The notes under the pieces are model-generated. The model made no database searches, was not told the DNA's origin, and was given only the letters and a program-made list of their open reading frames with translations. A DNA stretch of 64,000 bases. Source: Saccharopolyspora soli. GTDB taxonomy: Bacteria; Actinomycetota; Actinomycetes; Mycobacteriales; Pseudonocardiaceae. Shown piece by piece: positions 13,552-34,774 of the stretch (the first letter of the stretch is position 1; every line of letters starts with the position of its first letter). The translations under genes were made by a program, and so were the position numbers. Where the stretch lies: positions 1 through 64,000 of the forward strand of contig NZ_JALBWV010000028.1 in NCBI RefSeq assembly GCF_022678645.1. The letters run 5' to 3'.

Positions 13552-13554
13552 CGG

Positions 13555-14010: not shown

Positions 14011-14606
14011 GTCGGCGCCACCAAGTCCGCGGCGTTCTCGCCCGCGCGAAGCCGCTTGAGGAGCGAGTCGGGATCGAACGGGACACCGACAGGATTCTTG
14101 GCGAAGGAATCGGACTCCATGAATTCCACGCCCTCTGCCGCCGTCTCGAAGTTGTCCACCTGGAGTTCGATCTGATTGCCGTCGGGGTCGGCGTAATACA
14201 TCGACGTCGTCGTCCCGTGGTTGATCGTCATCGTTGGGCGGATCGAGTTCTCGCCCAATCGCTCATAGTTCCCGAGCAGGTCCTCGAGCGAGCGGTAGGT
14301 GAACGCGATGTGGGACAACCCGTGCAGCGGCAGGCCGGAAAGGTGCTCCGCCGAGGCGTCCGAAGTTGTCGCCTCGCCCGCACCGACAAGCCCCTCCGAC
14401 TTGCCGGCCAGTTCGGCGGCCATTTTCGCGGCGGCGTCAGGATTGGCCAGTGCGATCCGGTGGTGCTCGTCGTCATAGGTGAGGAATGCGCCGGACGGGT
14501 TTTCATGGACGACGCGAGCGTCAAGGACCTGCACATACCAATCACGCATTTGGGAGACCTGCCGGGTCCACAGGACGACATGCGCCAACTTCACCGGTGA
14601 AGCCAT
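14004..14606 (-). CDS. VOC family protein, type I extradiol dioxygenase-like
   Basis: A 200-aa vicinal-oxygen-chelate protein with two beta-alpha-beta-beta-beta modules. Likely metal ligands are His9 (KLAHVVLWT), His99 (GLSHIAFTYRSLEDLL) and Glu147 (YADPDGNQIELQVDNF), the 2-His-1-Glu pattern of Fe(II) extradiol dioxygenases. It is shorter than two-domain biphenyl-diol dioxygenases (about 290 aa), so it is either a small single-domain dioxygenase or a lyase/isomerase of the same fold. It is the second gene of the operon after DoxX. Ring cleavage is an inference from fold and FAH neighbour. Confidence 0.82.
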   Translation of the reverse strand: MASPVKLAHVVLWTRQVSQMRDWYVQVLDARVVHENPSGAFLTYDDEHHRIALANPDAAAKMAAELAGKSEGLVGAGEATTSDASAEHLSGLPLHGLSHIAFTYRSLEDLLGNYERLGENSIRPTMTINHGTTTSMYYADPDGNQIELQVDNFETAAEGVEFMESDSFAKNPVGVPFDPDSLLKRLRAGENAADLVAPTW

Positions 14607-14637
14607 GATGGCAACCTCGCTGATTCGATAGAATTGT

Positions 14638-14988
14638 TCAGATTGACAGAATTCGAAGGGTCAGAGCGGCCGCACTGAATACGAGCAGCACGGCCGCGGC
14701 CGTAATGTTCCAGTCGTTGATGCGCACGTGTGCGACGATCGCGCCGAGAAAGTAGAGGATCACCCCGACGGCGGCGGCAAGTCCCAGCGGCCACCAGAAC
14801 AGGCCGACGACCAGGCCGACACCACCGGCGATTTCCGCGGCGGCGAGGAGCCAGACCTTGTCGTCGGGAACACTGACCTTGCGCAGTGTCGCCATTTGCG
14901 ATTCCTGACGAGTCAGCTTTCCGCTCGCGGAGAGGAAGAGAATGCCGGCGAGCAACGCCGACACGATTGCGGCGGCAGTGAACATCAC
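14638..14988 (-). CDS. DoxX family membrane protein
   Basis: A 116-aa integral membrane protein with four predicted helices (AAIVSALLAGILFLSASG; LLAAAEIAGGVGLVVGLFW; LAAAVGVILYFLGAIVAHV; ITAAAVLLVFSAAALTLRI). The region after helix 1, SGKLTRQES, matches the DoxX pattern. Family members associate with quinone or sulfur redox and often lead catabolic operons. It is the first gene of the minus-strand operon, facing the HxlR regulator across 111 bp. Confidence 0.85.
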   Translation of the reverse strand: MMFTAAAIVSALLAGILFLSASGKLTRQESQMATLRKVSVPDDKVWLLAAAEIAGGVGLVVGLFWWPLGLAAAVGVILYFLGAIVAHVRINDWNITAAAVLLVFSAAALTLRILSI

Positions 14989-15636: not shown

Positions 15637-16404
15637 GTGCAGGTCGACGGTGCTGTCGTGGTGGTCAGCGGTGCGGGCTCGGGTCTCGGACTCGCGACCG
15701 CGAGGCGACTGGGTGCGGCTGGCGCTTCGGTCGGCCTGTTCGATCTGGACGCGGAGCTGGCGGACAAAGCCCGGGTCGAGATCGGCGACCGGGCGCTCGC
15801 CGTGCCCGTTGACGTCACCGACGGGACCGCGGTGGAGGCGGCGGTGGTCGAGGTCGTCGACCGGTTCGGGGCGGTGCACATTTGCGTCAACTGTGCCGGC
15901 GTGGCTTCCGCGGCGAAGGTGGTGAGTCGGGGTGTGCCCGCGCAGCTGGACGGGTTCGCGCGGACGGTCGCGATCAACCTGGTCGGCACGTTCAACGTCA
16001 CCCGGGTGGCTGCGGCGGCCATGCTGCGCAATGAGCCAGACGCCGGCGGGGAGCGCGGGGTCATCGTGAACACGGCATCCGACGCGGCGTTCGACGGGCA
16101 AGTGGGGCAGGCCGCGTACAGCGCGAGCAAGGCCGGCGTCGTCGGCATGACGCTGCCTCTGGCGCGCGACCTCGCTGGCAAGGGGGTGCGGGTCAACGCG
16201 GTCGCGCCGGGCCTGTTCGCCACCCGGATGGTCGCCGGGATGCCGGTGGCGGTCCGGGACCGGCTCGTCGACATGATCCTCGAACCGAAGCGGATGGGGG
16301 AGCCGGACGAGTTCGCCGCGCTCGTCGAGCACCTCGTCACCAACCGCTACCTCAACGCCGAGTGCATCCGGCTGGACGCGGGCCAGCGGATGCTGCCGCG
16401 CTGA
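15637..16404 (+). CDS. SDR, 3-hydroxyacyl-CoA dehydrogenase type II-like
   Basis: A 255-aa SDR resembling the HSD10/type II 3-hydroxyacyl-CoA dehydrogenases: GAGSGLG at 12-18, NCAG at 85-88, the Thr-Ala-Ser block with Ser148, and YSASK (Tyr161, Lys165). The C-terminal LVEHLVTNRYLNAECIRLDAG also follows that subgroup. The GTG start follows GGAG at about 5 bp; longer upstream extensions lack the SDR start. It opens the large catabolic cluster with the thiolase 13 bp downstream, consistent with oxidation of a 3-hydroxyacyl-CoA. A short inverted repeat (CACACCG-N12-CGGTGTG, 15539-15564) upstream may be an operator. Confidence 0.85.
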   Translation: MQVDGAVVVVSGAGSGLGLATARRLGAAGASVGLFDLDAELADKARVEIGDRALAVPVDVTDGTAVEAAVVEVVDRFGAVHICVNCAGVASAAKVVSRGVPAQLDGFARTVAINLVGTFNVTRVAAAAMLRNEPDAGGERGVIVNTASDAAFDGQVGQAAYSASKAGVVGMTLPLARDLAGKGVRVNAVAPGLFATRMVAGMPVAVRDRLVDMILEPKRMGEPDEFAALVEHLVTNRYLNAECIRLDAGQRMLPR

Positions 16405-16417
16405 CAAGGAGGTCACC

Positions 16418-17581
16418 ATGGATCTGTACATCTCCGGCGCGGCGGTCACGCCGTTCGGGAAGTTCCCGGGCCGGACGATCCCGGAGCTTGCCACCGAGGC
16501 GGTCGATGCGGCGATCGCGGACGCCGGGTGCGAGCCGGGCGAGATCGGGTTCGCCGCGTTCGGCAACGCCGCCAGTTCGATGATCACCGGGCAGGCCATG
16601 ATCCAGGGACAACTCGCGCTCCTCGACGGGCAGCTCGCGGGCGCGCAGATCGTCAACGTGGAGAACGCCTGCGCCTCCAGCTCGACCGCGGTGCAGCTGG
16701 CGATGATGGCCGTCCGCTCGGGACAGTGCGACACGGCCCTCGCGGTCGGCGCGGAGAAGCTGTCCCATCCGGACAAGACCCGGGCGTTCGCCGCGCTCGG
16801 CGCCGCAGTCGATGTGACCGTGCTGGACCCGGATGCGAGCGAGCGGAACTCCGTGTTCATGAACCTTTACGCGGCCGAGGCTCGCCGGTATCTCGCGGAG
16901 ACCGGTGCGCCCGTGGAGTCGCTGGCGCACGCGGCGGCGACGGTGCGCTTCCACGGCAGTCGCAACCCGAAGGCGCAGTACCGGGAAGCGTATATGCCGG
17001 AGGAGATCCTCGCGTCGCGCATGATCGACGATCCACTCACGCTGCTGATGTGCTCGCCGATCGGCGATGGCGCGGCGGCCGTGGTGGTGACCAACCGTCG
17101 GCCGGCCGCCGACGCGGTGGCGATCCGTGGCGCGGCGCTGCGCTCCGCCCGCAGACAGGAGGGTGGCGGGCTCGTCACCCGGGTCACCGAGCTGGCGTTC
17201 GCCGAGGCCGGGCTCCGACCGTCCGATGTGGACGTGGTGGAGCTGCACGACGCGGCCGCCTCCGCGGCGTTGGTGATCCTGGAGGAGATGGGCATCGTCG
17301 GGCAAGGCGAGGCGTGGAAACTCGCGATGGACGGCCAGCTCCGGTTCGACGGCGCCGTGCCGGTCAACCCGAGCGGTGGGCTGATCAGTCGAGGGCATCC
17401 GGTCGGCGCGACGGGCTGCGCACAGCTCGTCGAGCTGGTCGACCAGCTGCGCGGCCGCTGTGGCGACCGCCAGGTGCCGAACGCGCGGATCGCGGCGGCG
17501 CAGAACGCGGGCGGCGCGGTCACCCTGGACGACCCGTACACGGCCGCGGTGTGCGCGGTGACTGTCCTGGAGCGCCGGTGA
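16418..17581 (+). CDS. Thiolase family protein (SCP2-like)
   Basis: A 387-aa cytosolic thiolase-fold enzyme. The nucleophile is Cys85 in VENACASSSTAVQLA. ELHDAAA replaces the classical NEAFA loop and the GHP motif starts at residue 326 (GGLISRGHPVGATG). The second catalytic Cys (CxG) of classical thiolases is absent: AAQNAGG stands in its place, as in the SCP2/SCPx branch. That branch includes thiolases for branched or steroid side chains and some aldolase-like relatives. Its place between a dehydrogenase and an enoyl-CoA hydratase suggests the final cleavage of a 3-oxoacyl-CoA. The exact substrate is open. Confidence 0.87.
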   Translation: MDLYISGAAVTPFGKFPGRTIPELATEAVDAAIADAGCEPGEIGFAAFGNAASSMITGQAMIQGQLALLDGQLAGAQIVNVENACASSSTAVQLAMMAVRSGQCDTALAVGAEKLSHPDKTRAFAALGAAVDVTVLDPDASERNSVFMNLYAAEARRYLAETGAPVESLAHAAATVRFHGSRNPKAQYREAYMPEEILASRMIDDPLTLLMCSPIGDGAAAVVVTNRRPAADAVAIRGAALRSARRQEGGGLVTRVTELAFAEAGLRPSDVDVVELHDAAASAALVILEEMGIVGQGEAWKLAMDGQLRFDGAVPVNPSGGLISRGHPVGATGCAQLVELVDQLRGRCGDRQVPNARIAAAQNAGGAVTLDDPYTAAVCAVTVLERR

Positions 17582-17663
17582 GCGGGGGCGAGGGAGCCTA
17601 CGCCGTCTGGGCTGACGAGCAGTGCGGCGAGGAACGAGCGAGCAGCGCAGGAGGGAAGGCGGT

Positions 17664-18455
17664 GTGCAAGTGACTGAGTGGAGCGAACAAGCAAACACGA
17701 TGATCACCACCGAGCGCCGCGGCCCGGTCCTTGTCGTCACCCTTGACCGGCCGAAGCGGCGCAACGCGATCACACTCGCCATGGCTGAGCAGGTCGAGGC
17801 GGCGATGAATGAGCTCGACACGGACCCCGAGCTGCGAGTTGGCGTGCTCACCGGCGCCGGCGGCTACTTCTGCGCCGGTCAGGACCTCGCCGAGGCGGCG
17901 GCCGGGACGTTCGCCAAGACGCGGGACCGGAGCTGGTTCGGGCTCGTCGGCCGGGGCCCGGCCAAGCCGCTTGTCGCCGCCGTCGAGGGGTTCGCGCTGG
18001 CCGGCGGGTTCGAGGTGGTGCTTGCCTGCGATCTGGTTGTCGCCGCACGCGACGCACGCTTCGGCATCCCCGAGATCCACAACGGACAGGTCGCAGCTGC
18101 GGGCGGGCTGGTTCGGCTGCCGCTGCGGCTGCCGTACCCGCTGGCCGCCGAGCTGGCGCTGATCGGCGACCCGGTGGACGCCGCCACCCTGCACCGTCAC
18201 GGTCTGGTGAACCGGCTCGCCGAGCCGGGCGCCGCGCTCGACGTCGCTGTCGAGCTGGCCTCGCGCGTCCACGCGAACCCGCCGGTGGCCGTCCGCCACA
18301 CTCTGGAGCTGCTGCGTACCACCGCCGCCATGGCCGAGGCCGCCGGCTGGGCCAACCAGAACGCGCAGCTCAGCGCGTACGCCATGGCCAGCACCCCTGA
18401 GTACGCTGAGGGCGTCGCCGCGTTCCTGGACAAGAGGCCGCCGTCCTGGGCGTGA
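17664..18455 (+). CDS. Enoyl-CoA hydratase/isomerase
   Basis: A 263-aa crotonase-fold enzyme. The first oxyanion loop is FCAGQDL, the second is VEGFALAGGFEVVLACDLV, and both catalytic acid positions are kept (Glu in GGFEV, Glu in GIPEIHNG), so hydratase activity is likely. I chose the GTG 8 bp after AGGAGG; GTG 17670 and ATG 17700 are alternatives. Its stop overlaps a possible start of the PucR-type regulator. The gap to the thiolase is 82 bp and same-strand. It probably hydrates the product of the acyl-CoA dehydrogenase encoded later in the cluster. Confidence 0.87.
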   Translation: MQVTEWSEQANTMITTERRGPVLVVTLDRPKRRNAITLAMAEQVEAAMNELDTDPELRVGVLTGAGGYFCAGQDLAEAAAGTFAKTRDRSWFGLVGRGPAKPLVAAVEGFALAGGFEVVLACDLVVAARDARFGIPEIHNGQVAAAGGLVRLPLRLPYPLAAELALIGDPVDAATLHRHGLVNRLAEPGAALDVAVELASRVHANPPVAVRHTLELLRTTAAMAEAAGWANQNAQLSAYAMASTPEYAEGVAAFLDKRPPSWA

Positions 18456-18478
18456 CCACGGCAGGAACGGAGGTCCCC

Positions 18479-20392
18479 GTGGACGCACTCACCAAGTCGC
18501 TTACCGCGCTGCTCGATGGCCTCGCCAACGACGCGGCGCCCACGGAGTACGACGGCCTCCTTGACGACCTGCTCACCGCGCTGCCCGGCCCGTCGCACCC
18601 GGAGCTTGCGGCCGCCGCGCGAGGCGCGCACCAGGCGGTCGCACACCGGCGGCAGCGGGAGCGGCAGCTGGCCGTCCTCTACGACACCGCGCGGGACCTG
18701 GTGGCGCTGCGCGACGTCGGCGCCACCCTCGGCGCGGTGGTCGAGCGCGCGCACCAGGTGCTGCCCGGCGCGGACGTGACCTACCTGTGCCTGCGCGACC
18801 AGGAGACCGGCGGGTTCTACGTGCTCGCCAGCGTCGGGCTGATCTCCCCCGAGTTCAAGCACGTTAAGGTGCCGCCGGGACGCGGCATGTCCGCCGAGAT
18901 CGAGCGGACCCGCGCGGCGCTGCGGGTCACCCGCTACCTCGATGACTCGGCGATCATGCATGACAGTGGGCTCGACCGGGCGCTCGCCAAGGATGGCTTG
19001 GCCTCGGTTCTCGGCGCACCGCTGATCGCCCGTGACGAGGTGCTCGGCGTGCTGTTCGCGGCGAACCGGCACGAGCGGGCGTTCACGGACGAGGAGACCG
19101 CGCTGATCACCGCGCTGGCCGACTTCGCCGCGCTCGCCATCGACAATGCGCACCTGTTCGCCGACGCCACCGAGTCGCGCCGCACGATTGAGGCCGACAA
19201 CCTCGCGCTGCGCCGATCCGCCGAGTTGCACGACCGGCTGGCTCGCCTGGTGATCCGCGGCGCGGAGGTGGCCGACGTCGCCGACGCGCTCGCCGACGTG
19301 TTCACCGGGCAGTTGCTCCTGTTGGACCGCAACGACTCCCTGCTCGCCTACCGCGGCCTGTCCGCCAGCGCGGACGCCGGGGGGCCGGAAGGCGTGATCG
19401 CCGTTGACTCCGATCTCCTGCGCGACATCGGCGAGAGCAGGCGCACGGGCCGCTGCGTGGTCCGCGACGACGCCGAGCCGCCTCGGCTGGTCTCCGCGGT
19501 CGGCACCGGCAGGACGTTCCTCGGAGCTCTCGTGCTCGCGCGCCCGGCGCCGGTCACCTCGCTGGACGTGCGCAACCTGGAACGCGCGGCACAAATCGTA
19601 GCCTTGCTGACACTGCGACAGGAGGCGATCGTCGAGGCGGAGGAACGTGTTCGCGGCGAGCTGCTGGGGGAGCTGCTGGCCAACCACGCCCCGCCGACCG
19701 AGGCGACCCGGCTGCGGGCCTGCGCCCGGCACTTCGACCTCGCCAGGGCGCAGGTGACGCTCGCCGTCCGGGTCGCGTCCGAGGAGGACGTGCCGAAGGT
19801 ACGGCGGAAGGTCCTGGACCTGGCGCGCACCGAGGAGGGCATCGCGGGCGACTTCGCCGGACTGCTCGCCGTGGTGCTGCCCGCGGAGAGCGCGAAGGAC
19901 GCGGCCGCCCGGCTGCACCAGCGCATCCAGCGCGAGCTGGGCGTCGCGGTGGTGGTGTGCGGGGTGCCGCCCGTCGACCCGCGCACCGGTAGGCTCGCTG
20001 GTTGCTTCGAAACCGCCCGGCGCGGTGTCGCGCTGCTCGAGGCTCTCGGCCGCACCGACGCCCACGCCAGCACAGAGGACCTGATGCTCTACGGCGTCCT
20101 GTTCGACGCGTCGCGCAAGGAGGACCTGGCGCGGTTCCTCGACAGCACGCTCGGCGCGCTGCGGGCGCATGACCGCGACCAGGGGTCGGACCTCGTCGGC
20201 ACGCTCACGGTGTTCTTCGACAGCGGTGGCAACGCGGCGGAGGCGGCACGCCGCATGTTCGTCCACCCCAACACGGTCACGAAGCGACTTGACCGGGTGG
20301 CGAGCTTGCTCGGCGCGGACTGGCAGACCGATCACGAGAACCTCGCCCTGCGTGTGGCGCTTCGCTTGCACCAACTGTCCGAACACGACTGA
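18479..20392 (+). CDS. PucR/CdaR-type regulator with GAF domain
   Basis: A 637-aa DNA-binding regulator. Residues 60-230 form a GAF sensor (LYDTARDLVALRDVGATLGA to FADFAALAIDNAHLF). A central region around 370-480 resembles the PucR linker. The C-terminal HTH_30 reads GGNAAEAARRMFVHPNTVTK, then RLDRVASLLGADW. PucR-type proteins activate nearby catabolic genes in response to their substrate. The GTG has GGAGG 5 bp upstream; a GTG at 18452 overlapping the hydratase stop is the alternative. It lies in the middle of the catabolic cluster, so autoregulation of the whole run is plausible. An imperfect GC-rich hairpin (20411-20432) follows. Confidence 0.88.
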   Translation: MDALTKSLTALLDGLANDAAPTEYDGLLDDLLTALPGPSHPELAAAARGAHQAVAHRRQRERQLAVLYDTARDLVALRDVGATLGAVVERAHQVLPGADVTYLCLRDQETGGFYVLASVGLISPEFKHVKVPPGRGMSAEIERTRAALRVTRYLDDSAIMHDSGLDRALAKDGLASVLGAPLIARDEVLGVLFAANRHERAFTDEETALITALADFAALAIDNAHLFADATESRRTIEADNLALRRSAELHDRLARLVIRGAEVADVADALADVFTGQLLLLDRNDSLLAYRGLSASADAGGPEGVIAVDSDLLRDIGESRRTGRCVVRDDAEPPRLVSAVGTGRTFLGALVLARPAPVTSLDVRNLERAAQIVALLTLRQEAIVEAEERVRGELLGELLANHAPPTEATRLRACARHFDLARAQVTLAVRVASEEDVPKVRRKVLDLARTEEGIAGDFAGLLAVVLPAESAKDAAARLHQRIQRELGVAVVVCGVPPVDPRTGRLAGCFETARRGVALLEALGRTDAHASTEDLMLYGVLFDASRKEDLARFLDSTLGALRAHDRDQGSDLVGTLTVFFDSGGNAAEAARRMFVHPNTVTKRLDRVASLLGADWQTDHENLALRVALRLHQLSEHD

Positions 20393-20539
20393 GCACTGCC
20401 CAGTGGGGATTCCGCCACCGGGCCGGTGCGGACGGTGTCCCGCCAGCACATTCTCCGCAGGTGGCAACGGACCTAGCGTTCTGAGGCAGCACACGGACGC
20501 GGTCGGCGGACCGCGGTCGCCCTCAGAGCGGAGGACGCC

Positions 20540-22600
20540 ATGCCCATGCATGTTGGAATCGACGTTGGTGGCACGTTCACGGACGCCGTGGCGATCACCG
20601 ACGCCGGCGCGGTCCGGGGCAAGTCACTGTCCACAGCGGACGTCACCGGCGGGATCTTCGGCGCCATCGATGTGTTGCGGGAGCGGATGGGACTGTCCGC
20701 GGCGGAGTTCTTCGCGGCCACCGAGCGGTTCGTGCTCGGCAACACCATCGTCACCAACGCGATCGACCAGCTGCGCTTCGCCAAGGTCGGGTTGCTCACC
20801 ACCGCCGGGTTCAAGGACACGCTGCGGATCGCGCGGTCCGCTCGCGGAGAGGAACGCGACCCGCACGACCTCGCGCCCTACCCGTCGGTCGTCGAGCGCC
20901 GGCACACCCGTGAGGTGGCCGAGCGGGTCGACGCGAGCGGCGCGGTCGTGGTGCCACTGGACCTCGGCCAGGTGCGTCGAGACCTCGCGCACCTGGTCGA
21001 GGTCGACGGCGTCGAGGCGGTCGCCGTCTGTCTACTGTGGTCGTTCCGCAACAGCGAGCACGAGCGGGCGATCGGCGCGCAGATCGAGGAACTCTACCCG
21101 AATCTGCCCTACACGCTGTCGTGCGAGTTGACCCCGGTCTACCGAGAGTACGAGCGGATGATCACCACGGTGCTCGACGCTGCGGTGAAACCGATTGTGG
21201 CCAACCACTTCCAGGCGCTCGAGGAGGGGCTGCGGGCTGCGGGACTGCAGGTGCGGCCACAGATCATGCAGGTGCACGGCGGCTTCCTGTCCATTCAGGA
21301 GACCGCGAAGGCGCCGATCAACATGTTCAACTCCGGCCCAGTGGGCGGGGTCGCCGGGGCGCGGCTGCTCGGTGAGCGGATCGACCGCAGCCGCATCCTC
21401 ACGACCGACATGGGCGGCACCAGTCTCGACGCGGCGGCCATCATCGACGGCGAGCTGCGGATCCTGCCGCGCGCCAGGATCGGCGAGTTCCCGACCAGCC
21501 TCACCGCGGTCGACATCGAGTCGATCGGCGCGGGCGGCGGCAGCCTCGGCTGGATCGACGAGCGCGGCCTGCTGCGGGTCGGCCCGCGCAGCGCGGGCTC
21601 CCGGCCTGGTCCGGTCTGCTACGCCCGCGGCGGCACCGAACCGACCGTGACCGACGCGGCCCTTGTGATGCGCCTGATCAACCCGGACTACTACCTCGGC
21701 GGCACGATGACGCTGGACGCCGACCTGGCCCGCAAGGCTGTCGGGGAACGGCTCGGGCAGCGGCTCGGACTGGATGCCGAGGCCGTCGCGCACGGCATGT
21801 ACCGGCTCACCGTGCACCAGATGGCCAACGCCGTCCGCAAGATCACCATCAACCGCGGCCACGACCCGCGCGAGTTCACGATGGTCAGCTTCGGGGGCGC
21901 GATGGGCCTGTTCGCGGCGGCCATCGCGAACGAGGTCGGCGTGTCCGAGGTGGTCGTGCCGGCCAACGCGGCGGTGTTCTCCGCATGGGGCCTCATGCAC
22001 GCCGACGCCGTCTACACCGAGGTACGCACGACGCCGTGGAACTTCCGCCAGTCGACCGAGGTGCTGGCGCGGGCGTTCACCGAGCTGGAGGCCGGCGCAC
22101 GTGCCTGGTTCGCCGACGAGAACATCCCGGAGGACCGACGTGAGCTGATCCGCGAGGCAGACATGAAGTTCGCGGGCCAGATCTTCGAGGTGACCACCCG
22201 TCTGCCGGACGAGCCGCTCACCGATGACGCGAAGGGCGCACTGCGCGACCAGTTCGTCCGGGACTACGAGGCTGAGTTCGGCACCGGCACCGCGTGGACC
22301 GAGAGCGAGGTGCTGCTGATCAACTCGCGGATCCGCGCGGTCGGCCGGTCCGAGTCGCTGAACCTGCGCGGCGACCACGTGCTCACCAGGCCGGCGGAGC
22401 ACCTGCGGTACGAGCGCCAGATCATCGATCCCGCCGACGGCAAGCCGCAGACCGTCACTGTCTACCGCGGGTTTGCCGCGATCGGGTCCGCGTTGGGACC
22501 TTGCCTCCTCGAAGAGATCGACACCACCGTCTACGTGCCGGCCGGCGCCACCGCCGAGCTGAACGAGCACGGCGACGTCCTGATCACCCTGTCCCGCTGA
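20540..22600 (+). CDS. Hydantoinase/oxoprolinase family protein, HyuA-like (ketone carboxylase beta-type)
   Basis: A 686-aa ASKHA-fold ATPase subunit. The N-terminal phosphate loop is GIDVGGTFTDAV at residues 6-17 and the second nucleotide loop is TTDMGGTSLDAA near 295. IESIGAGGGSLGWID and SAGSRPGPVCYARGGTEPTVTDA are diagnostic of HyuA/AcxA/ApcA proteins. Relatives use ATP to phosphorylate a cyclic amide or, in acetone and acetophenone carboxylases, a ketone or bicarbonate. The length fits those carboxylase and 5-oxoprolinase subunits. It is 19 bp before the HyuB homologue. The acyl-CoA ligase, alcohol dehydrogenase and thiolase around it favour ketone carboxylation over hydantoin hydrolysis. 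Confidence 0.88.
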   Translation: MPMHVGIDVGGTFTDAVAITDAGAVRGKSLSTADVTGGIFGAIDVLRERMGLSAAEFFAATERFVLGNTIVTNAIDQLRFAKVGLLTTAGFKDTLRIARSARGEERDPHDLAPYPSVVERRHTREVAERVDASGAVVVPLDLGQVRRDLAHLVEVDGVEAVAVCLLWSFRNSEHERAIGAQIEELYPNLPYTLSCELTPVYREYERMITTVLDAAVKPIVANHFQALEEGLRAAGLQVRPQIMQVHGGFLSIQETAKAPINMFNSGPVGGVAGARLLGERIDRSRILTTDMGGTSLDAAAIIDGELRILPRARIGEFPTSLTAVDIESIGAGGGSLGWIDERGLLRVGPRSAGSRPGPVCYARGGTEPTVTDAALVMRLINPDYYLGGTMTLDADLARKAVGERLGQRLGLDAEAVAHGMYRLTVHQMANAVRKITINRGHDPREFTMVSFGGAMGLFAAAIANEVGVSEVVVPANAAVFSAWGLMHADAVYTEVRTTPWNFRQSTEVLARAFTELEAGARAWFADENIPEDRRELIREADMKFAGQIFEVTTRLPDEPLTDDAKGALRDQFVRDYEAEFGTGTAWTESEVLLINSRIRAVGRSESLNLRGDHVLTRPAEHLRYERQIIDPADGKPQTVTVYRGFAAIGSALGPCLLEEIDTTVYVPAGATAELNEHGDVLITLSR

Positions 22601-22619
22601 CCGTAGGGAGCTGACACCG

Positions 22620-24794
22620 ATGTCGCTGGAAGAACTCCGCAACGACTACGACCCGGTCACGCTCGAGGTGATCAGAATGCGCCTCGACAACATCGTCGAG
22701 GAGATGGGCATCGCGATGATCCGCTCGTCTGGCTCGCCGGTGATCACCGAGGCGCGGGACTACAACACCGCCCTGTTCGACGCGACCGGCCGCATCTACT
22801 CCTACTCGGACGCCGTGCAGCTGCACATCGGCTCTGGCGGGGTCGCGGTGCGCAACCTGCTCGCCACCGTCGACGCCGGCGAGCTCCAGCCCGGGGACGC
22901 GTTCATCAGCAACGACCCGCACACATCCGGGTCGAGCCACCCACCGGACACCACGGTCATCTCGCCGATCTTCCTGGGCGAGCGGCTGATCGGGTTCGCG
23001 CAGTCGCAGGCGCACCTAGTGGACGTCGGCGGCATGGCGCCGGGCGGGTTCGCGCCCGCCGCTACCGACTGCTTCGGCGAGGCGCTGCGCCTTCCCCCTG
23101 GCGTGAAGATCTTCGAGCGTGGTGAGCCGGTTGAGTCGGTGCGCAGGCTCATCGGCAACAACGTGCGCACCCCGGTGCTGTACTGGAACGACGTGCGCAG
23201 CATGGTCGCCAGCAACAACACCGGCATCCGCAGGCTCGTGGAGACCATCGAGGAGTTCGGCGCCGAGACGTTCGCCGACTACACCGCGCTGAGCTTCGAG
23301 CTGGCCGAGCACGTGCTGCGGGGCCGGATCCGCGACATCCCGGACGGCACCTACGCGTCCGAGGAATGGGTCGAGGGCAACGGGCACGACGACGCGCTCT
23401 ACCGCGTGTACTGCGCGATGACCGTTGCCGGTGACCGGATCACCTTCGACTTCACCGGGTCCAGCCCGCAGACCGACGGGTTTGTCAACTGCAGCTACGG
23501 CGCGCTGGTGGGCAGCCTCGCGAGCGCGGTCGTGCCGATCCTCGGCTGGGACGTGCCGTTCAACGAGGGCGTGATGACCGCGTTCACGATCCTCGCTGAT
23601 GAGGGCAGCATCGTGAACCCGGTGGTGCCGGCGCCCATCAGCAACGGCCACCTCACGGCCGGCGTGCGCGCCACTCGGCTCGTCACCCGGCTGCTGAACC
23701 AGGCCTGCGTGAAGAGCACGAACGATATGGTGCGGCAGCGGTGTCAGGGGGAGTGGGGCGACTCGTGGACCGGCGGCATCTCGTCGGGCACCCGCGCGGA
23801 CACCGGCGAGTTCTTCGTCTGGTTCAACATGGACGGCGGCGGCATGGGGACCGGTGCGCAGCTGGTTCGTGACGGGCACGACGCGGCGGGCCTGCTCACA
23901 CAGGTGGGCAACATGCTGCCGGACGTCGAGATGAACGAGATGCTCTACCCGACGCTGTACCTGTGGAAGCGGCTCGCCACCGACTCGAGCGGGCACGGCG
24001 CGGGCCGCGGTGGCATGGGGCTGGAGTACGCGTGGGTGCCGTGGGGTGCCGACGAGGCCACCGAGACGTTGTTCTGCCCGACCGCGGCCGTGCCGCCGTG
24101 GGGGTTCGCCGGCGGGCTGCCGGCTGGCGGCAGCGGGTTCGAGTTCTGGCGGGACAGCAACGTTCGCACGCTGATGGCCGATGGGCGCTACCCGCACCGG
24201 GACGCGATCGAAGCGGGCGCGATCGAGCTCCAGGACGTCAACGCGCAGGGACTTCGACTCGGGGTGGGTGACGTGTTCCACTCGTGGCTCGGCGGCGGTG
24301 GCGGCATCGGCGACCCGCTGCTGCGTGACCCGCGTGCTGTCGTGGCGGACGTGGTGGACGAGTTCGTCTCGGCCGACCAGGCCCGGGACGTGTACGGCGT
24401 CGTGCTCGACGGGGACGGGTTCGACGCCGAGGCGACAGCTGCGCTGCGTGACCGGATCCGGCTGACCCGCCTGGCGGCGGCCGGTTCGCCCGCCGATACC
24501 GTGCCGACGCTGCTGCAGTCCGATGTGGACCTTCTGGAGCGCAGGTGGGTGCCCGTCCGAGGCTGCGGTACCGACTGCTGGACGTGCCCGGTCTGCGCCG
24601 GCTCGCTCGGCAACGGCGACGATTGGCTTGCGGGTGCGGTGACTACCACGCAGGTGGCGAGCGAACGCCTCGCCGAATTCGGTGTGCGGGTGCGCGAACG
24701 CGTCGGCGCGGCCGAGCAGGTCCTCCTCGACGAGTCGCTGTGCCCGCACTGCGGCACCCTGCTCGACGCGCGCGTGCACGTCGCTCAGTCCTGA
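22620..24794 (+). CDS. Hydantoinase B/oxoprolinase family protein with cysteine-rich C-terminal tail
   Basis: A 724-aa HyuB-type subunit, partner of the preceding HyuA. The start YDPVTLEVIRMRLDNIVEEM, ISNDPHTSGSSHPPDTTVIS, and GHLTAGVRATRLV then GGGGGIGDPLLRDP near the end are family hallmarks. HyuB proteins usually stop about 20-60 residues after that Gly-rich segment. Here about 150 more residues follow, including CGTDCWTCPVCAGSLG (C-x3-C-x2-C-x2-C) and LCPHCGTLLDA, a probable zinc-binding module. Acetone and acetophenone carboxylases have a separate small zinc-binding subunit; a fusion of that role here is my inference. No separate small subunit gene is seen nearby. Confidence 0.88.
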   Translation: MSLEELRNDYDPVTLEVIRMRLDNIVEEMGIAMIRSSGSPVITEARDYNTALFDATGRIYSYSDAVQLHIGSGGVAVRNLLATVDAGELQPGDAFISNDPHTSGSSHPPDTTVISPIFLGERLIGFAQSQAHLVDVGGMAPGGFAPAATDCFGEALRLPPGVKIFERGEPVESVRRLIGNNVRTPVLYWNDVRSMVASNNTGIRRLVETIEEFGAETFADYTALSFELAEHVLRGRIRDIPDGTYASEEWVEGNGHDDALYRVYCAMTVAGDRITFDFTGSSPQTDGFVNCSYGALVGSLASAVVPILGWDVPFNEGVMTAFTILADEGSIVNPVVPAPISNGHLTAGVRATRLVTRLLNQACVKSTNDMVRQRCQGEWGDSWTGGISSGTRADTGEFFVWFNMDGGGMGTGAQLVRDGHDAAGLLTQVGNMLPDVEMNEMLYPTLYLWKRLATDSSGHGAGRGGMGLEYAWVPWGADEATETLFCPTAAVPPWGFAGGLPAGGSGFEFWRDSNVRTLMADGRYPHRDAIEAGAIELQDVNAQGLRLGVGDVFHSWLGGGGGIGDPLLRDPRAVVADVVDEFVSADQARDVYGVVLDGDGFDAEATAALRDRIRLTRLAAAGSPADTVPTLLQSDVDLLERRWVPVRGCGTDCWTCPVCAGSLGNGDDWLAGAVTTTQVASERLAEFGVRVRERVGAAEQVLLDESLCPHCGTLLDARVHVAQS

Positions 24795-24814
24795 GTAGAT
24801 GGTCGGAGGACTTC

Positions 24815-26383
24815 ATGATCGGCAATGCGGTGGCCGCCTCGGCGACCACGACCCACAACGAGCTGGTGCTTGCCGCACTGCGACGTTGGCCGGACCGGAG
24901 CGCGTTCGTGTACGGCGAGGTCACCTACACCTACGCGGAGTCGGCGGATCTGATCGCCCGCATGATGGCGGTGCTGGCCGCCCGGGGGATCGGTCCCGGC
25001 ACGGCGCTGGGCGTGCTCGCACCGAACCGTCCGGAGGCATGGCTCGTGTCGGTGGCCGCTCAGCTGCTCGGCGGGCATTCCGTCGGCATGCACGCCAGGG
25101 CGTCGTTCGACGACCACCTCTTCGAGTGTGTGGACGCCGACGTCCGGGTGCTCGTGGTGGACCCGACCTTCGCCGATGACGCCGGGCGACTGGCTGCGGC
25201 CGGCGTGTCCACCCTGCTGAGCATCGGGCCGGGTGAGTTCGCGCCGGACATCCTCGCCTTGGCGGCCGCCGAATCGCCCCGCCCACTCGATGCGTCCGAT
25301 GTGGACGGCGAGCACTGGGCGGAGATCCTTTACACCGGCGGCACCACGGGGCGGTCCAAGGGTGTTATCCAGAGCCAGCGCGCGCGGGCGGCGATCACCC
25401 TCGCGGCGCCGCTGGCCTACGAGCTGCCGCTCGCGCCGGTGTATCTGGCCGCTGCGCCGATCACCCATGCCGCAGCGCACTTCCTCGTCCCGACACTGCT
25501 GCGCGGCGGGACCGTGGTGCTGCTGGACGGGTTCCGGCCGGAGGAGTTCGTCGAGACCGTCCGCCGCACCCGCGCCAACTTCTCGTTCCTGGTGCCCACG
25601 ATGATCTACAAGCTGCTCGACCACGGGCAGGCCGCGTCGATCGAGATGCCGACGCTGGAGCGGATCATCTACGGCGCCTCGCCGATGTCACCGAGCAGGT
25701 TGATCGAGGGTCACGACCGGCTCGGGCCGGTGTTCACCCAGATCTACGGGCAGACCGAGACACTCGCTCTCGGCACCGCGCTGCTGTCTGCCGAGCACGA
25801 CCTGTCCGACCAGACCCGGCTGATGTCGTGCGGACGCGCGGTGCCCGGCACCCGGATCGCGTTGCTCGGTGAGGACAACCGGCCGGTGGCCCGCGGCGAG
25901 GTCGGCGAGATCGCGATCCGCAGCCCAGGCGTCATGCTCGGATACCACCACCAGCCCGAGCTCACCGCCGAGACGCTCGCCGACGGGTGGCTGCACACCG
26001 GCGACATGGGCCGCGAGGACGACGCCGGCTTCTACACCATCGTCGATCGCAAGAAGGACTTCATCATCTCCGGCGGGTTCAACGTCTACACCCGCGAGAT
26101 CGAGGACGTCCTGTGCGCCGACCCGGCCGTGGCGGCGGCCGCGGTCATCGGCATCCCCGACCCGGTGTGGGGCGAGGCGGTGAAGGCGGTCGTGGTGCCC
26201 GTGCCGGGCGCCACTGTGGACATCGCGAATCTGGTCAAGCTGGTGCGTGACGCGAAGGGCGGCGTGCACACGCCGAAGTCGGTGGACGTCGTCGCCGAAC
26301 TGCCGCTGACCCCGGTCGGCAAGCCGGACAAGAAGGCGCTGCGCGCCGCCTACTGGGCTGACCAGCAGCGCGCCGTGAGCTGA
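24815..26383 (+). CDS. AMP-dependent acyl-CoA synthetase/ligase
   Basis: A 522-aa ANL-superfamily ligase that activates a carboxylate with ATP and CoA. The P-loop is ILYTGGTTGRSKGVI, the A5 motif IYGQTET, A7 HTGDMG, A8 KDFIISGGFNVYTREIEDVL, and the catalytic Lys is in LTPVGKPDKKALR. GGAGG lies 6 bp before the ATG, 20 bp after the HyuB stop. Directly after a carboxylase-like pair, it would convert a 3-oxo acid to its CoA thioester, as benzoylacetate CoA ligase does in acetophenone degradation. The substrate is inferred from order only. Confidence 0.9.
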   Translation: MIGNAVAASATTTHNELVLAALRRWPDRSAFVYGEVTYTYAESADLIARMMAVLAARGIGPGTALGVLAPNRPEAWLVSVAAQLLGGHSVGMHARASFDDHLFECVDADVRVLVVDPTFADDAGRLAAAGVSTLLSIGPGEFAPDILALAAAESPRPLDASDVDGEHWAEILYTGGTTGRSKGVIQSQRARAAITLAAPLAYELPLAPVYLAAAPITHAAAHFLVPTLLRGGTVVLLDGFRPEEFVETVRRTRANFSFLVPTMIYKLLDHGQAASIEMPTLERIIYGASPMSPSRLIEGHDRLGPVFTQIYGQTETLALGTALLSAEHDLSDQTRLMSCGRAVPGTRIALLGEDNRPVARGEVGEIAIRSPGVMLGYHHQPELTAETLADGWLHTGDMGREDDAGFYTIVDRKKDFIISGGFNVYTREIEDVLCADPAVAAAAVIGIPDPVWGEAVKAVVVPVPGATVDIANLVKLVRDAKGGVHTPKSVDVVAELPLTPVGKPDKKALRAAYWADQQRAVS

Positions 26384-26410
26384 TCCCCGACTCGTTGAGA
26401 GGAGTCCGCC

Positions 26411-27535
26411 GTGCGGATTCGTGCCGCCGTGCTCCGGCAGTCGCCGATTTCCGGCCCGTATGCGACGACCACACCACTGTCCATTGAGGATCTTTGGCTC
26501 GACGATCCCGGCCCTGGTGAGGTACTCGTGCGCGTCGACGCGGCGGGCCTGTGCCACTCGGACCTGTCCGTCGTGGACGGCAACCGGCCGCGCCCGCTGC
26601 CGATGGCGCTCGGCCACGAGGCGGCGGGCACCGTGCTCGAGGTCGGGGTCGGTGTCTACGACGTGCGGCCCGGCGACCGGGTGGTGCTCGTGTACGTGCC
26701 GAGCTGCGGAGTCTGCCGCTACTGCGGATCCGGCCGGCCCGCGCTGTGCCCGGCGGCGGCCACGGCGAACGGGTGCGGCGCCCTGATCCGCGGTGGCTCC
26801 CGGTTGCGGGACGCCACCGGCGCCGACGTGCGTCACCACCTCGGTGTGTCCGGGTTCGCCACCCACTCCGTGGTGGACCGCAACTCCCTGGTGGTGATCG
26901 GTGCGGACGTGCCGGCAGACGTGGCGGCACTGTTTGGCTGCGCCATGCTCACCGGGTTCGGCGCGGTCGTACACACCGCCGCGGTGCGCCCGGGTGACTC
27001 GGTCGCGGTGTTCGGGCTCGGCGGTGTCGGGCAGGCGGCGGTGATGGCCGCTGTGGCGGCCGGCGCCTACCCCGTGGTCGCCGTGGATCCAGTGGGGGAC
27101 AAGCAGAAGCTCGCGCTGGACCTCGGTGCGAGCCACGTCGGCCCGCCCGACGTGGCCGCGTCGCTGGTGAAGGAGGCCAGCCCCGGCGGGGTCGACTGGG
27201 CGTTCGAGGTTGTCGGCTCTGCCGCCGTGCTCGAGTCCGCCTACGCGGTGACCGGTCGAGGCGGCACGGCCGTCGCCGTCGGACTCCCGCACCCCGACAC
27301 GCGGGTTTCGCTGCCGGTGCTGGACATCGTCGCCGGCAACCGCGGCATCCTCGGCTCCTACATGGGTTCCGCGCAACCTCAGCTCGACATTCCCGCCATG
27401 ATCGCGTTGTGGCGCGCCGGCCGATTGCCGGTGGACCGGCTCAAGAGCACGGAGCTGCCGTTGTCGGACATCAACTCCGCGCTCGACGCGCTCGCCGGCG
27501 GCGCGGCGGTCCGGCAGATAGTGGTGCCCACGTGA
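26411..27535 (+). CDS. Zinc-dependent alcohol dehydrogenase (MDR family)
   Basis: A 374-aa medium-chain dehydrogenase. Catalytic zinc ligands are in GLCHSDLSVVDG (Cys) and ALGHEAAG (His). The structural zinc loop is CGVCRYCGSGRPALC, four cysteines as in class III-like ADHs. The Rossmann motif GLGGVGQAA precedes VVAVDPVGDKQKLALDLGA, where the Asp after the second strand suggests NAD rather than NADP. The ATG-less start is a GTG with GAGAGGAG upstream. In this cluster it could oxidise a secondary alcohol to the ketone used by the HyuA/HyuB pair. It overlaps the thioesterase gene by 4 bp. Confidence 0.9.
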   Translation: MRIRAAVLRQSPISGPYATTTPLSIEDLWLDDPGPGEVLVRVDAAGLCHSDLSVVDGNRPRPLPMALGHEAAGTVLEVGVGVYDVRPGDRVVLVYVPSCGVCRYCGSGRPALCPAAATANGCGALIRGGSRLRDATGADVRHHLGVSGFATHSVVDRNSLVVIGADVPADVAALFGCAMLTGFGAVVHTAAVRPGDSVAVFGLGGVGQAAVMAAVAAGAYPVVAVDPVGDKQKLALDLGASHVGPPDVAASLVKEASPGGVDWAFEVVGSAAVLESAYAVTGRGGTAVAVGLPHPDTRVSLPVLDIVAGNRGILGSYMGSAQPQLDIPAMIALWRAGRLPVDRLKSTELPLSDINSALDALAGGAAVRQIVVPT

Positions 27536-27948
27536 ATACTCTCGCCCGTGCCGACTTCCCCGTGCTGCGGCCCCAACAGACCCGCTGGAGCGACAACGAC
27601 GTGTACGGGCACGTCAACAACGCCGCCTACTACCTATGGTTCGACAGCACGGTCAACGGCTGGCTGATGGACACGACCGGCGTGGACATCCGCATGCTGC
27701 CGGCCATCGGCGTCGTGGTGGAGACCTCGTGCCGGTTCGTGCATGAAGTCACATTCCCGGACCGGCTCGACATCGGGCTGGCGCTGGAGCACCGCGGCCG
27801 CACCAGCGTCCGCTACCGGCTCGGCGTGTTCCGCGATGACCTGCTGTGCGCGCACGGCCAGTTCGTTCACGTGTACGTCGACCCGGCCACCCGCCGCCCG
27901 ACGCAGATCCCTGACCTGATCGGCAAGGCCCTGGACACGTTGGCATAG
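27532..27948 (+). CDS. Acyl-CoA thioesterase (4HBT hotdog fold)
   Basis: A 138-aa hotdog-fold protein. The active-site signature WSDNDVYGHVNNAAYYLWFD contains the catalytic Asp of 4-hydroxybenzoyl-CoA-thioesterase-type enzymes. It would hydrolyse an acyl-CoA, perhaps relieving CoA trapping in the pathway or releasing the product. The GTG start shares GTGA with the stop of the alcohol dehydrogenase, so translation is probably coupled. The acyl-CoA dehydrogenase gene follows after 14 bp. Confidence 0.85.
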   Translation: MNTLARADFPVLRPQQTRWSDNDVYGHVNNAAYYLWFDSTVNGWLMDTTGVDIRMLPAIGVVVETSCRFVHEVTFPDRLDIGLALEHRGRTSVRYRLGVFRDDLLCAHGQFVHVYVDPATRRPTQIPDLIGKALDTLA

Positions 27949-27962
27949 AACGGAGCTCGCCC

Positions 27963-29111
27963 ATGCCTGCCATCCGCCTACTTCCCGACCAGACCGCCGA
28001 GGACCTCCTGGAGATGGTCCGTGACCTGTGCCGAGCCGAGCTCGCCCCGCGGGCCGCGGCCGCCGAAGCTGGCGGGGAGTTCCCGCGTGACATGTTCCGG
28101 CTGCTCGGCAAGCAGGGCATCCTCTCGCTGCCGTACGAGGAACGCTACGGCGGCGGCGGGCTGCCCGACGAGGTCACGCTGCAGGTGGTCGAGGAGATCG
28201 CCACCGCCTGGGCCACCGTGGGCGTCGGCCTGACCGTGCAGTGGGCCAGCTGTCATCCACTGTGGAAGCACGGGACCGACGCCCAGCGCGACCGGTGGCT
28301 TGGCAACATGATCGGCGGCGATCTGCTCGGCGGCTACTGTCTGTCCGAACCGGACGCCGGCTCCGACGCGGGATCGCTGCGCACGCGGGCGGCGCGCGAC
28401 GGCGACTCCTACGTCATTACCGGCACCAAGGCGTGGATCACCCACGGCGGCGTCGCGGACTTCTACGCGGTGATGGCGCGAACCTCGGACGACGGGTCCC
28501 GCGGCATCTCGTGTTTCCTCGTGCCCGGCGACGCGGAGGGACTCACTGCGGGTCCGCCGGAGACCAAGATGGGGCTCACCGGCTCGCGCACCACGCAGCT
28601 GCGGTTCGAGGGTGTGCGGGTCCCGGTCGACCAAAGGATCGACGCCGAGGGTCGTGGCCTTCCCATGGCCCTCGAAGCACTCAACACCGGTCGGCTGTGC
28701 ATCGCCGCGTGCGCCACCGGTCTCGCGCAGGCGGCACTCGACTGCGCGGTGTCATATGCGCGACAGCGAGAGCAGTTCGGCCAGCCGATCATCAACTTCC
28801 AGGGCGTGTCGTTCCTGCTCGCCGACATGTCGGCCGCCGTCGAGAGCGCGCGGGCGACCTATGTGGACGCCGCGCGGCGCAAGGACCGCAGGCTGCCGTT
28901 CACCCGGGAGGCCGCGATCGCGAAGCTCGTCACGAGCGACCTCGCGATGAAGGTGACCACCGACGCGGTGCAGGTGCTCGGCGGCGTCGGCTACACACGC
29001 GAGTTCCCCGCCGAGCGGTACATGCGCGAGGCCAAGATCATGCAGATCTTCGAGGGCACCAACCAGATCCAGCGGCTCGTGATCGGCCGCGACCTCGCGG
29101 CAGGAAGTTGA
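27963..29111 (+). CDS. Acyl-CoA dehydrogenase
   Basis: A 382-aa FAD-dependent acyl-CoA dehydrogenase. The central strands include GGYCLSEPDAGSDAGSLRTRA and YVITGTKAWITHGG. The C-terminal domain holds QVLGGVGYTREFPAERYMREAK and the catalytic Glu364 in IFEGTNQIQRLVIGR. It introduces the 2,3 double bond of an acyl-CoA, feeding the hydratase and SDR at the start of the cluster. The gene ends 5 bp before the LLM oxidoreductase. Chain-length preference is not readable. Confidence 0.92.
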   Translation: MPAIRLLPDQTAEDLLEMVRDLCRAELAPRAAAAEAGGEFPRDMFRLLGKQGILSLPYEERYGGGGLPDEVTLQVVEEIATAWATVGVGLTVQWASCHPLWKHGTDAQRDRWLGNMIGGDLLGGYCLSEPDAGSDAGSLRTRAARDGDSYVITGTKAWITHGGVADFYAVMARTSDDGSRGISCFLVPGDAEGLTAGPPETKMGLTGSRTTQLRFEGVRVPVDQRIDAEGRGLPMALEALNTGRLCIAACATGLAQAALDCAVSYARQREQFGQPIINFQGVSFLLADMSAAVESARATYVDAARRKDRRLPFTREAAIAKLVTSDLAMKVTTDAVQVLGGVGYTREFPAERYMREAKIMQIFEGTNQIQRLVIGRDLAAGS

Positions 29112-29116
29112 GCGGG

Positions 29117-30064
29117 ATGCGTTGGGGCATCAGCATTCCGTACCCGGACCTCGGGCTCGCCGAGCAGGCCGACCGGTACGCCGAGCTGGCCGAGGCCGGC
29201 TACACCGACTTCTGGACCCTGGAAGCGAGCGGATGGGACGCGTTCACCCCGCTCACAATGGTCGCGACGCGACTCCCGACCGTCCACATCGGAACAGCGA
29301 TCGTGCCGGTGTTCAGCCGCGGCGCGGCGGTGCTCGCGCAGTCCGCGGCCGCGATGGCCGAGCTTGCCGGGGACCGGTTCACGCTCGGACTCGGCTCGTC
29401 GACCAGCGTGATCATGCGGAACTGGAACGGTGTGCCGTTCACCGAGCCGTTCAAACGCACCCGGGACACCGTCCGATTCCTCCGCAGCGCCCTCGCCGGC
29501 GAGCGGGTCAACCACTCCTACGACACGTTCGCCGTGCGCGGTTTCCGGCTCGACCGGCCGCCTGCGGTGGTGCCGAGGATCCTGCTCGCGGCGTTGCGGC
29601 CTGGCATGCTGCGAATGGCCGGCCGTGAGGGTGACGGCGCGATTCTGAGCTGGCTGTCCGCCGACGACGTCCCCACAGTCACCGCACACGTCGGCGCCGA
29701 CCGGATGGTGGCCGCGCGGATCTTCGTCGCACCGTCGGTGGACACCGAGGCGGTGCACGCCGCGGCTCGACGGGTTATGGCTGGCTACCTCACCGCGCCG
29801 GTGTACCGAGCATTCCACGAGGGGCTTGGCCGTGGCGAGGCGCTGGCCGAGCTATGGTCGCGTTGGGACAGTGGGGACCGGAAGGGTGCTGCCGCCGCGA
29901 TCCCGGACAAAGTGGTGGACGAGCTGGTGGTCAACGGCAGCCCGGACGAGTGTGTCGAGGGGATCCAGCGCTACGTGGCGAACGGGGTGGACGTGCCGAT
30001 CATCCTGCCACTGCCGGTCGGTATGACTACCCACGACGCCGCGCTCCGGCTGGCGCCCCGATGA
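29117..30064 (+). CDS. LLM class (luciferase-like) oxidoreductase
   Basis: A 315-aa TIM-barrel flavin or F420 enzyme. The start MRWGISIPYPDLGLAEQADR, then AELAEAGYTDFWTLEASGWD, and the middle RFTLGLGSSTSVIMRNWNGV, then EPFKRTRDTVRFLRSAL, follow F420-dependent LLM proteins. A longer in-frame opening upstream overlaps the acyl-CoA dehydrogenase out of frame and is spurious. As the last gene of the cluster it may oxidise or reduce a pathway intermediate, or act as a monooxygenase on the ketone. F420 use is inferred from family and host. Confidence 0.87.
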   Translation: MRWGISIPYPDLGLAEQADRYAELAEAGYTDFWTLEASGWDAFTPLTMVATRLPTVHIGTAIVPVFSRGAAVLAQSAAAMAELAGDRFTLGLGSSTSVIMRNWNGVPFTEPFKRTRDTVRFLRSALAGERVNHSYDTFAVRGFRLDRPPAVVPRILLAALRPGMLRMAGREGDGAILSWLSADDVPTVTAHVGADRMVAARIFVAPSVDTEAVHAAARRVMAGYLTAPVYRAFHEGLGRGEALAELWSRWDSGDRKGAAAAIPDKVVDELVVNGSPDECVEGIQRYVANGVDVPIILPLPVGMTTHDAALRLAPR

Positions 30065-30637: not shown

Positions 30638-31373
30638 CACCTGGGCGACCTACGACTCCCACATCCGCAATCACATCCTGCCCCGCTGGTCTGGCACCGC
30701 CCTGGGAGACATTCAGCGGATCGCGGTCAAGGGCTGGGTGAACAAGAAACTCCGCCCGACCATGGCAGACAAGAGCGCCCAGGACATCCTCGTGCTGTTC
30801 TCGATGATCCTCGGCGAAGCCGTGGACGAGGGATTGATCGGCGCGAACCCGTGTCGGAAACTGCGCATCAGCTTCGACCCCGACTTCGGCACACTGCACG
30901 AAGTGCGGGGGCGGCTGGAACTCGGGCAGCCGAAGACTCCGGCTAGTGTCCGAACGGTGCACCTGCCGCCGTTCCTGGCCGAGGAACTCCGGGCACACCG
31001 GGAACGCAACCCGGATGCGCGGTTTGTGTTCACCGGGGCAGGCGGTGGGCTGTACCGGCGGTCCAACTTCCGCCGCCGGATCTGGCTGCCTGCTTTGGCC
31101 GGGGACGAGAAGAAGAGGTGGTCACCGATCAACCAAGACTTGCACTTCCATGACCTGCGTCACACGCACGAGACGTGGCTGATCGAGGATCATGTGCCGC
31201 GCATCATGCGGCTGGTGCGGCTCGGGCACAAGCGCAAGGACGTCGACGACATCTACTCGCACGTCATGGACCAGATGATCGAGGACACGCTGAAGGCCCT
31301 GCAGCAGCGGTGGGAGCAGGATGGCGGGTGGACGTGGCAGGAAAACACCGCTGTGGGGCGGGAAGCGGCATGA
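30638..31373 (+). pseudogene. Tyrosine recombinase remnant lacking N-terminus and catalytic Arg I
   Basis: The readable protein runs from TYDSHIRNHILPRWSG, through the core-binding domain, to DLHFHDLRHTHETWL, VRLGHKRKDVDDIYSHVMDQ and a natural stop. HxxR, GH and the nucleophile Tyr are present. Between NPCRKLRISFD and PDFGTLHEVRGRLELG the usual 30-40 residues with TGxRxxEL, which hold the first catalytic Arg, are deleted. The N-terminal arm-binding domain is replaced by the methyltransferase remnant. The protein cannot recombine DNA. Confidence 0.8.
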
Positions 31374-31644
31374 ACTCTTCGGATTGGGGGTTGTGGTCAG
31401 CAGACCGTGCTCCCAATTTGCTCCCAGACGATCCGTGCCGTACGTGTGACGGCTTGCCGCACAGTCGACCTCGACCCGACTGGCGCTGACCCCGAAGAGT
31501 CGCCCGATCATGGCCAGGGTTTGTCGCGACCGGCACGACTGTCCTCGCGTCGTGCGGGCTGCGGTTTTACGGCCTGTGTTTTCCAGGCGCGCGATGATCA
31601 CTCGTTCGTAGCTTCATGGCGCTGGCCGGTGCTGGTAAGCACTA

Positions 31645-32211: not shown

Positions 32212-32299
32212 TAAAGGACAGGGGCGGCCCGCCTGTCACGTTGCTCCGGTTATGGCCGCTACGGCGATCTGAGGACGCTTCGAGAGGGCTATCTCAGCA

Positions 32300-32335
32300 G
32301 AACCGGGCCCCGACGTCGAGGCCCGGTTCTTTGCT
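32300..32335. terminator. Rho-independent-type terminator
   Basis: GAACCGGGCC and GGCCCGGTTC form a perfect 10-bp stem around a 10-nt loop, followed by TTTGCT. It lies 88 bp after the hypothetical gene and at the 3' side of the convergent creatininase pseudogene, so it could serve either strand. Confidence 0.6.
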
Positions 32336-32343
32336 CTATTGTC

Positions 32344-32930: not shown

Positions 32931-32987
32931 GAGAGGCGCCACCGACACCACCAAGAAGGTCACCGACCGTAGCCCGAAGGGGATCTT

Positions 32988-34654: not shown

Positions 34655-34668
34655 GCGCGATCCGGGCC

Positions 34669-34692
34669 TTTTAGGCACCATTTTAGGCACCA
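34669..34692 (+). repeat. Tandem direct repeat of 12 bp after the integrase
   Basis: TTTTAGGCACCA occurs twice head to tail, 15 bp after the integrase stop. Short direct repeats between an integrase and its tRNA target often are arm-type binding sites; that role is inferred. Confidence 0.5.
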
Positions 34693-34730
34693 CATCGGAG
34701 AATTCTGGGCACCGCGCGCTGTCCTAAATA

Positions 34731-34769: not shown

Positions 34770-34774
34770 AAGAG

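Follow-up and report, generated by a model that had tools for sequence, protein, structure and literature searches.

A HyuA/HyuB pair with a fused gamma domain in a putative ketone-degrading operon of Saccharopolyspora soli

The window analysed here is a 64,000-nucleotide stretch of the genome of Saccharopolyspora soli (contig NZ_JALBWV010000028.1), and our subject is an operon of eleven genes within it, all on the plus strand (window 15637-30064), that includes a gene pair encoding HyuA, an alpha subunit, and HyuB, a beta subunit. As an earlier note on this DNA had described, the pair is accompanied in this run of same-strand genes by a coenzyme A (CoA) ligase, a zinc alcohol dehydrogenase (ADH), a thiolase, beta-oxidation enzymes, and a PucR/GAF regulator (Table 1). 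With the start codons we chose, genes overlap by 4 bases at two junctions and the remaining gaps are 5-82 bases, save for 147 bases upstream of HyuA, a stretch that might hold a second promoter. The gene directly after HyuB encodes the CoA ligase. Only a single alpha gene is present, with no alpha' or epsilon gene among the eleven, and family scans of these genes detected no aminotransferase, amidase, carbamoylase, or other nitrogen-handling gene. The pair has the make-up of its superfamily: a HyuA-type ASKHA subunit (PF01968, PF05378) and a HyuB-type subunit (PF02538; HyuB fold).

Sequence and structure comparison identified the C-terminal ~80 residues of HyuB as the zinc (gamma) subunit of acetone carboxylase (Acx) and acetophenone carboxylase (Apc), fused here to the beta subunit. 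The tails compared came from 41 HyuB rows, with the same-genus copies L038-L044 among them. The profile of this region matched Apc gamma (E 1e-8) and Acx gamma (E 1.5e-8), and the top five Foldseek matches to it in the PDB were Acx or Apc gamma chains. Among ten relatives checked for PF08882, the family scored above its cut-off in P0014, P0016, P0111, and P0114, the last three of which had been picked since PF08882 was already listed for them. The four-cysteine site of the ketone-carboxylase gamma subunit is present in HyuB (Table 1), where the cysteines are predicted to form a zinc site, and both CxxC pairs are kept in all 16 HyuB rows that scored highest in the protein search, window included. 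A gamma subunit with such a site is described as a feature of Acx and Apc and reported as absent from hydantoinases (PMC5214803); the fusion adds to the carboxylase idea a feature that the earlier note had not named. Tail sequences placed gamma-fused HyuB proteins in Actinobacteria, Pseudomonadota, Bacillota, and haloarchaea, for the most part under the annotation hydantoinase; L119, in which the gamma match and HyuB fall in separate open frames, has an uncertain place among them.

HyuB also has an inner segment of carboxylase length. From Arg463 to Gly560, both conserved positions, it spans 97 residues; in one alignment, the same segment measured 73-81 residues in 29 gamma-less rows (caprolactamase, 80, and N-methylhydantoinase, 77, included), which came from similarity hits, many of one genus, and are not independent, and 89-110 residues in 34 rows with a fused or associated gamma, among them Apc (106) and Acx (110). 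Gamma fusion and the longer beta segment may be non-independent, because gamma wraps around beta in Apc. Acx beta is reported to be ca. 720 amino acids long, ~50 longer than Apc and ~150 longer than the hydantoinase subunit (PMC5214803). The full length of the window HyuB (724 amino acids) counts the fused gamma, and it is through the inner segment that the protein shares the beta length of the ketone carboxylases. All four metal-site residues of HyuB are kept and the ATP motifs of HyuA are intact (DVGGTFTDA, DMGGTSLDA, GSRPGP). HyuA further contains AERVDASG, which resembles the R/KERiDsxG-type fingerprint of Apc alpha; similar segments occur in gamma-less relatives such as L138, L142, and L143.

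Phylogenetic position was assessed in unrooted trees built from 44 HyuA rows and 41 HyuB rows, in which the clade nearest to the window proteins (the near clade) was represented by a hand-picked subset of 13 rows, window included and same-genus copies L038-L044 excluded. This clade was supported at 100/100 for HyuA and 100/99 for HyuB and fell outside the hydrolase group, outside Acx, and outside Apc in both trees. The HyuB tree carried long-branch warnings, and Acx was represented in it solely by the source genome's own Acx-like row. The hydrolases (caprolactamase CapAB, N-methylhydantoinase, and five paralogues from the source genome) formed a group of their own (98/94 for alpha, 100/99 for beta); the IaaCE lactamases were in neither tree. 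The topology fits a single loss or a single gain of gamma, the exception being a gamma-less HyuB near the window clade (L115_17051).

CoA-activating genes were much commoner beside gamma-fused than beside gamma-less HyuB. Of 35 near-clade loci, 34 had a CoA ligase or CoA transferase III within 5 kb of HyuB, as did 8 of 15 other loci with a gamma fusion. The 26 gamma-less rows, likewise not independent, had none; apart from these, one more HyuB without gamma has such a gene nearby because it sits inside a gamma-fused locus. These counts omit L110-L113, which have a separate gamma gene (L111 with a CoA transferase nearby), as well as L084 and L086, which lie at contig ends and have no HyuB row, and the same-genus copies L038-L044. 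Outside the near clade the enrichment gave Fisher p = 0.0004, and p = 0.06 after hard thinning with group counts set by hand. On a haloarchaeal plasmid of Natrinema, CaiB, HyuA, a gamma-fused HyuB (39% identity), a CoA ligase, a 2,3-butanediol dehydrogenase (encoded on the opposite strand), and an acyl-CoA dehydrogenase (ACAD) follow in a row. The ligase and ADH of this locus are only 26% and 30% identical to those of the window, and the same combination therefore seems to have been assembled from different enzymes. On the haloarchaeal plasmids L147 and L149, an AMP-binding protein and beta-oxidation-type genes were seen near gamma-fused HyuB.

Clustering of genes from 56 loci recovered a degradative 3-hydroxy-3-methylglutaryl-CoA (HMG-CoA) reductase at 26 and an HMG-CoA lyase at 19, all in the near clade. 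The common set comprises PucR, HMG-CoA reductase, HMG-CoA lyase, HyuA, gamma-fused HyuB, CoA transferase III, and enoyl-CoA hydratase (ECH), as at L070 (6551-15280), where family checks returned 412.3 bits for the reductase (cut-off 259.95) and 370.1 for the lyase (cut-off 246), and at L146; it is annotated likewise on a Rhodococcus plasmid. One guess for these relatives is that carboxylation by HyuAB yields a 3-methylglutaconate-like acid. Separately, distant gamma-fused HyuAB pairs (L045, L048, L049, L050, L051) were seen near an FAD-binding monooxygenase-like protein, a CoA ligase, and arylmalonate decarboxylase-family and glyoxalase-family proteins in varying combinations (family checks covered only L048 and L049), a pathway different from that of the window.

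Ten of the eleven genes recur in a single run in Nocardioides sp. 21Sc5-5 (52-77% identity), and the set is therefore unlikely to have come together by chance; PucR in this genome is 39% identical and on the opposite strand. Across 22 genomes of the window's genus, HyuB was found at E <= 1e-120 in five, namely the window's own and four at 63-65% identity. A search of the 20 kb around those four (L038, L039, L040, L043) showed PucR, HyuA, HyuB, and ECH only, with an additional ADH at 28% identity in L039, and the full eleven-gene set was not seen there. The source genome itself encodes seven HyuB proteins: that of the operon, one with an adjacent unfused Acx-type gamma (PF08882, 141.7 bits) in a separate Acx-like alpha/beta set (G000 contig C162, L110), and five gamma-less proteins.

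Comparison with characterized systems places the window pair beside the ketone carboxylases in some respects and apart from them in others. Acetone and acetophenone carboxylase are the sole assayed carboxylases of the family in the literature we found. In Aromatoleum aromaticum, Apc combines an ASKHA alpha, a metal-site beta, and a zinc gamma, and the CoA ligase gene bal is reported in the same operon as apcABCDE (PMC4729919, PMC5214803); the Apc/Bal route (alcohol, ketone, beta-keto acid, CoA ester, thiolysis), as described in these sources, resembles the one proposed below. The window differs in lacking alpha' and epsilon genes and in its fused gamma, so that the apcABCD(E) order, with separate alpha' and gamma genes, is not matched. 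AcxABC, like the window pair, has one alpha, one beta, and one gamma together with a longer beta segment (110 residues vs 97 in the window), but the window has no separate acxC downstream of the alpha and beta genes, and its alpha subunit contains the GxxPGP motif that is missing from the solved Xanthobacter alpha subunit. CapAB, N-methylhydantoinase, and IaaCE share the HyuA/HyuB fold; they are reported without gamma (PMC5214803), and the beta segment is shorter in CapB and N-methylhydantoinase than in the window.

We lean, with some reserve, towards a reading in which the operon degrades a ketone, probably formed from its secondary alcohol, through biotin-free, ATP-dependent carboxylation by HyuA and the gamma-fused HyuB. 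The pair would probably be a variant of the ATP-dependent carboxylases with a fused beta-gamma subunit, and a ketone is its probable substrate. The ADH, a class I/III-like zinc enzyme whose family does not fix its substrate, would oxidize the secondary alcohol to the ketone. HyuA, as a single ASKHA-type kinase subunit, would activate the ketone enol and bicarbonate, and an Acx-like single-kinase cycle is proposed because no alpha' gene is present. Carboxylation would take place at the metal site of HyuB and, with gamma fused to its C terminus, the enzyme would consist of two kinds of chain. The CoA ligase would then convert the beta-keto acid product to its CoA ester, which the SCP2-like thiolase would cleave, leaving an acyl chain to be finished by ACAD, ECH, and the HSD10-like short-chain dehydrogenase/reductase (SDR) of beta-oxidation; our guess is that the SDR and ACAD suit a branched or longer acyl residue. 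The earlier note had proposed a possible ketone-carboxylation cluster, and its core idea, that an ATP-dependent carboxylase supplies a CoA ligase and then thiolysis, is favoured by the fused gamma, the segment length, and an adjacent ligase as in Aromatoleum. Membership in Acx or Apc did not hold up, and the secondary alcohol and ketone that it named are substrates suggested by the gene content.

Several observations weigh against a ketone carboxylase. Direct scores of the window proteins are best to hydrolases (N-methylhydantoinase and caprolactamase), and in both trees a split with 100/98 support separates the window clade, the hydrolases, and the gamma-fused L116 and L118 from Acx, Apc, and the remaining gamma-fused proteins. 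The earlier note had held that firm grouping with hydantoinases would refute its proposal; the window does fall on their side of this split, but its clade is not part of the hydrolase group itself. Moreover, most near-clade HyuB proteins (C-termini of L054-L088) have lost one or more of the zinc cysteines while keeping the gamma region, and a literature search found no assayed gamma-fused enzyme. Tree position, direct scores, and cysteine loss would all suit an ATP-dependent lactam or imide hydrolase working in a CoA pathway, like IaaCE or caprolactamase, with gamma as an ancestral remnant. Caprolactamase too is reported to depend on bicarbonate (PMC8453981), and the earlier note's argument that hydantoin enzymes need no CoA genes is contradicted by the hydantoinase-type IaaCE lactamases, whose predicted substrate in indoleacetate metabolism is a CoA ester (PMC5214803; see also PMC8453981). 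We nonetheless regard such a hydrolase as unlikely, if the most serious competitor, given that the eleven genes yielded no nitrogen-handling family, that hydantoinases are reported to lack gamma, that the HyuB segment is of carboxylase length, and that the CxxC pairs persist throughout the best-scoring HyuB rows.

A biotin-independent carboxylase acting on a C-H acid other than a ketone, for example an unsaturated acid or its CoA ester, appears less likely still. The HMG-CoA gene set common in the near clade would accept a 3-methylglutaconate-like acid, but the window operon has neither HMG-CoA genes nor a CoA transferase, and its CoA ligase, thiolase, and ADH fit a beta-keto acid. That HyuAB is an ordinary hydantoinase or oxoprolinase merely located among beta-oxidation genes is very improbable: the source names of the listed relatives are nearly all of hydantoinase type (one reads 'acetophenone carboxylase delta subunit'), whereas the ten-gene conservation in Nocardioides, the presence of gamma, and the placement of five separate gamma-less HyuB proteins of the same genome in the hydrolase group all argue otherwise.

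Table 1. Genes of the operon and domains of HyuB, with window positions and supporting matches.
Feature	Position	Strand	Evidence
HSD10-like SDR (3-hydroxyacyl-CoA dehydrogenase type 2-like)	15637-16404	+	PF00106; best solved relatives are 3-hydroxyacyl-CoA dehydrogenases, E 6.3e-74
SCP2-like thiolase	16418-17581	+	PF22691/PF00108; best solved relative is a benzoylsuccinyl-CoA thiolase subunit, E 4.2e-55
ECH, crotonase family	17664-18455	+	PF00378; NF006100 294.1 bits, above cut-off 282
PucR-type regulator with GAF domain	18452-20392	+	PF13556, PF01590
HyuA, ATP-binding (ASKHA kinase) alpha subunit	20540-22600	+	PF01968/PF05378
HyuB, metal-site beta subunit with fused gamma domain, 724 amino acids	22620-24794	+	PF02538
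HyuB inner segment of carboxylase length, residues 463-560	24006-24299	+	97 residues
HyuB fused gamma (zinc) domain, residues 648-724; Cys656, Cys659, Cys708, Cys711	24561-24791	+	profile, Foldseek
AMP-forming acyl-CoA ligase, FadD8-like	24815-26383	+	PF00501; NF004838 462.8 bits, below cut-off 875
Zinc ADH, class I/III-like	26411-27535	+	PF08240/PF00107; solved relatives
4HBT thioesterase	27532-27948	+	PF13279
ACAD	27963-29111	+	PF00441/PF02770/PF02771
LLM class F420-dependent oxidoreductase	29117-30064	+	TIGR03841 282.7 bits, above cut-off 213.65; PF00296

Inspection by eye of the flanking DNA (window 30738-34846 and 36829-54556) showed integrase-like genes near a tRNA-Val (34774-34846) and a tRNA-Gly/Cys/Val group (36829-37096). 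Genes resembling a conjugative element come next, and the operon may adjoin an integration hot spot. On the other flank, minus-strand genes (11096-14988, also by eye) resemble a thiamine-diphosphate enzyme, a fumarylacetoacetate hydrolase-like protein, a VOC-family protein, and DoxX, and are possibly another catabolic operon.

More broadly, we tentatively suggest, at somewhat less confidence than the proposal for this operon, that HyuA and gamma-fused HyuB represent a further branch of ATP-dependent biotin-free carboxylases, apart from Acx and Apc, that would feed CoA-based ketone catabolism and, in a common actinobacterial form, would feed a pathway into HMG-CoA through biotin-free carboxylation. 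The trees place the gamma-fused group between carboxylation and hydrolysis, which bears on how one reaction became the other. The gamma tail and longer beta segment would offer a simple sequence test for telling likely carboxylases apart from hydrolases within the many proteins annotated as 'hydantoinase B'. If the proposal is true, the two-gene fused-gamma version would be a simpler system for understanding the use of ATP in the carboxylation of an inert ketone.
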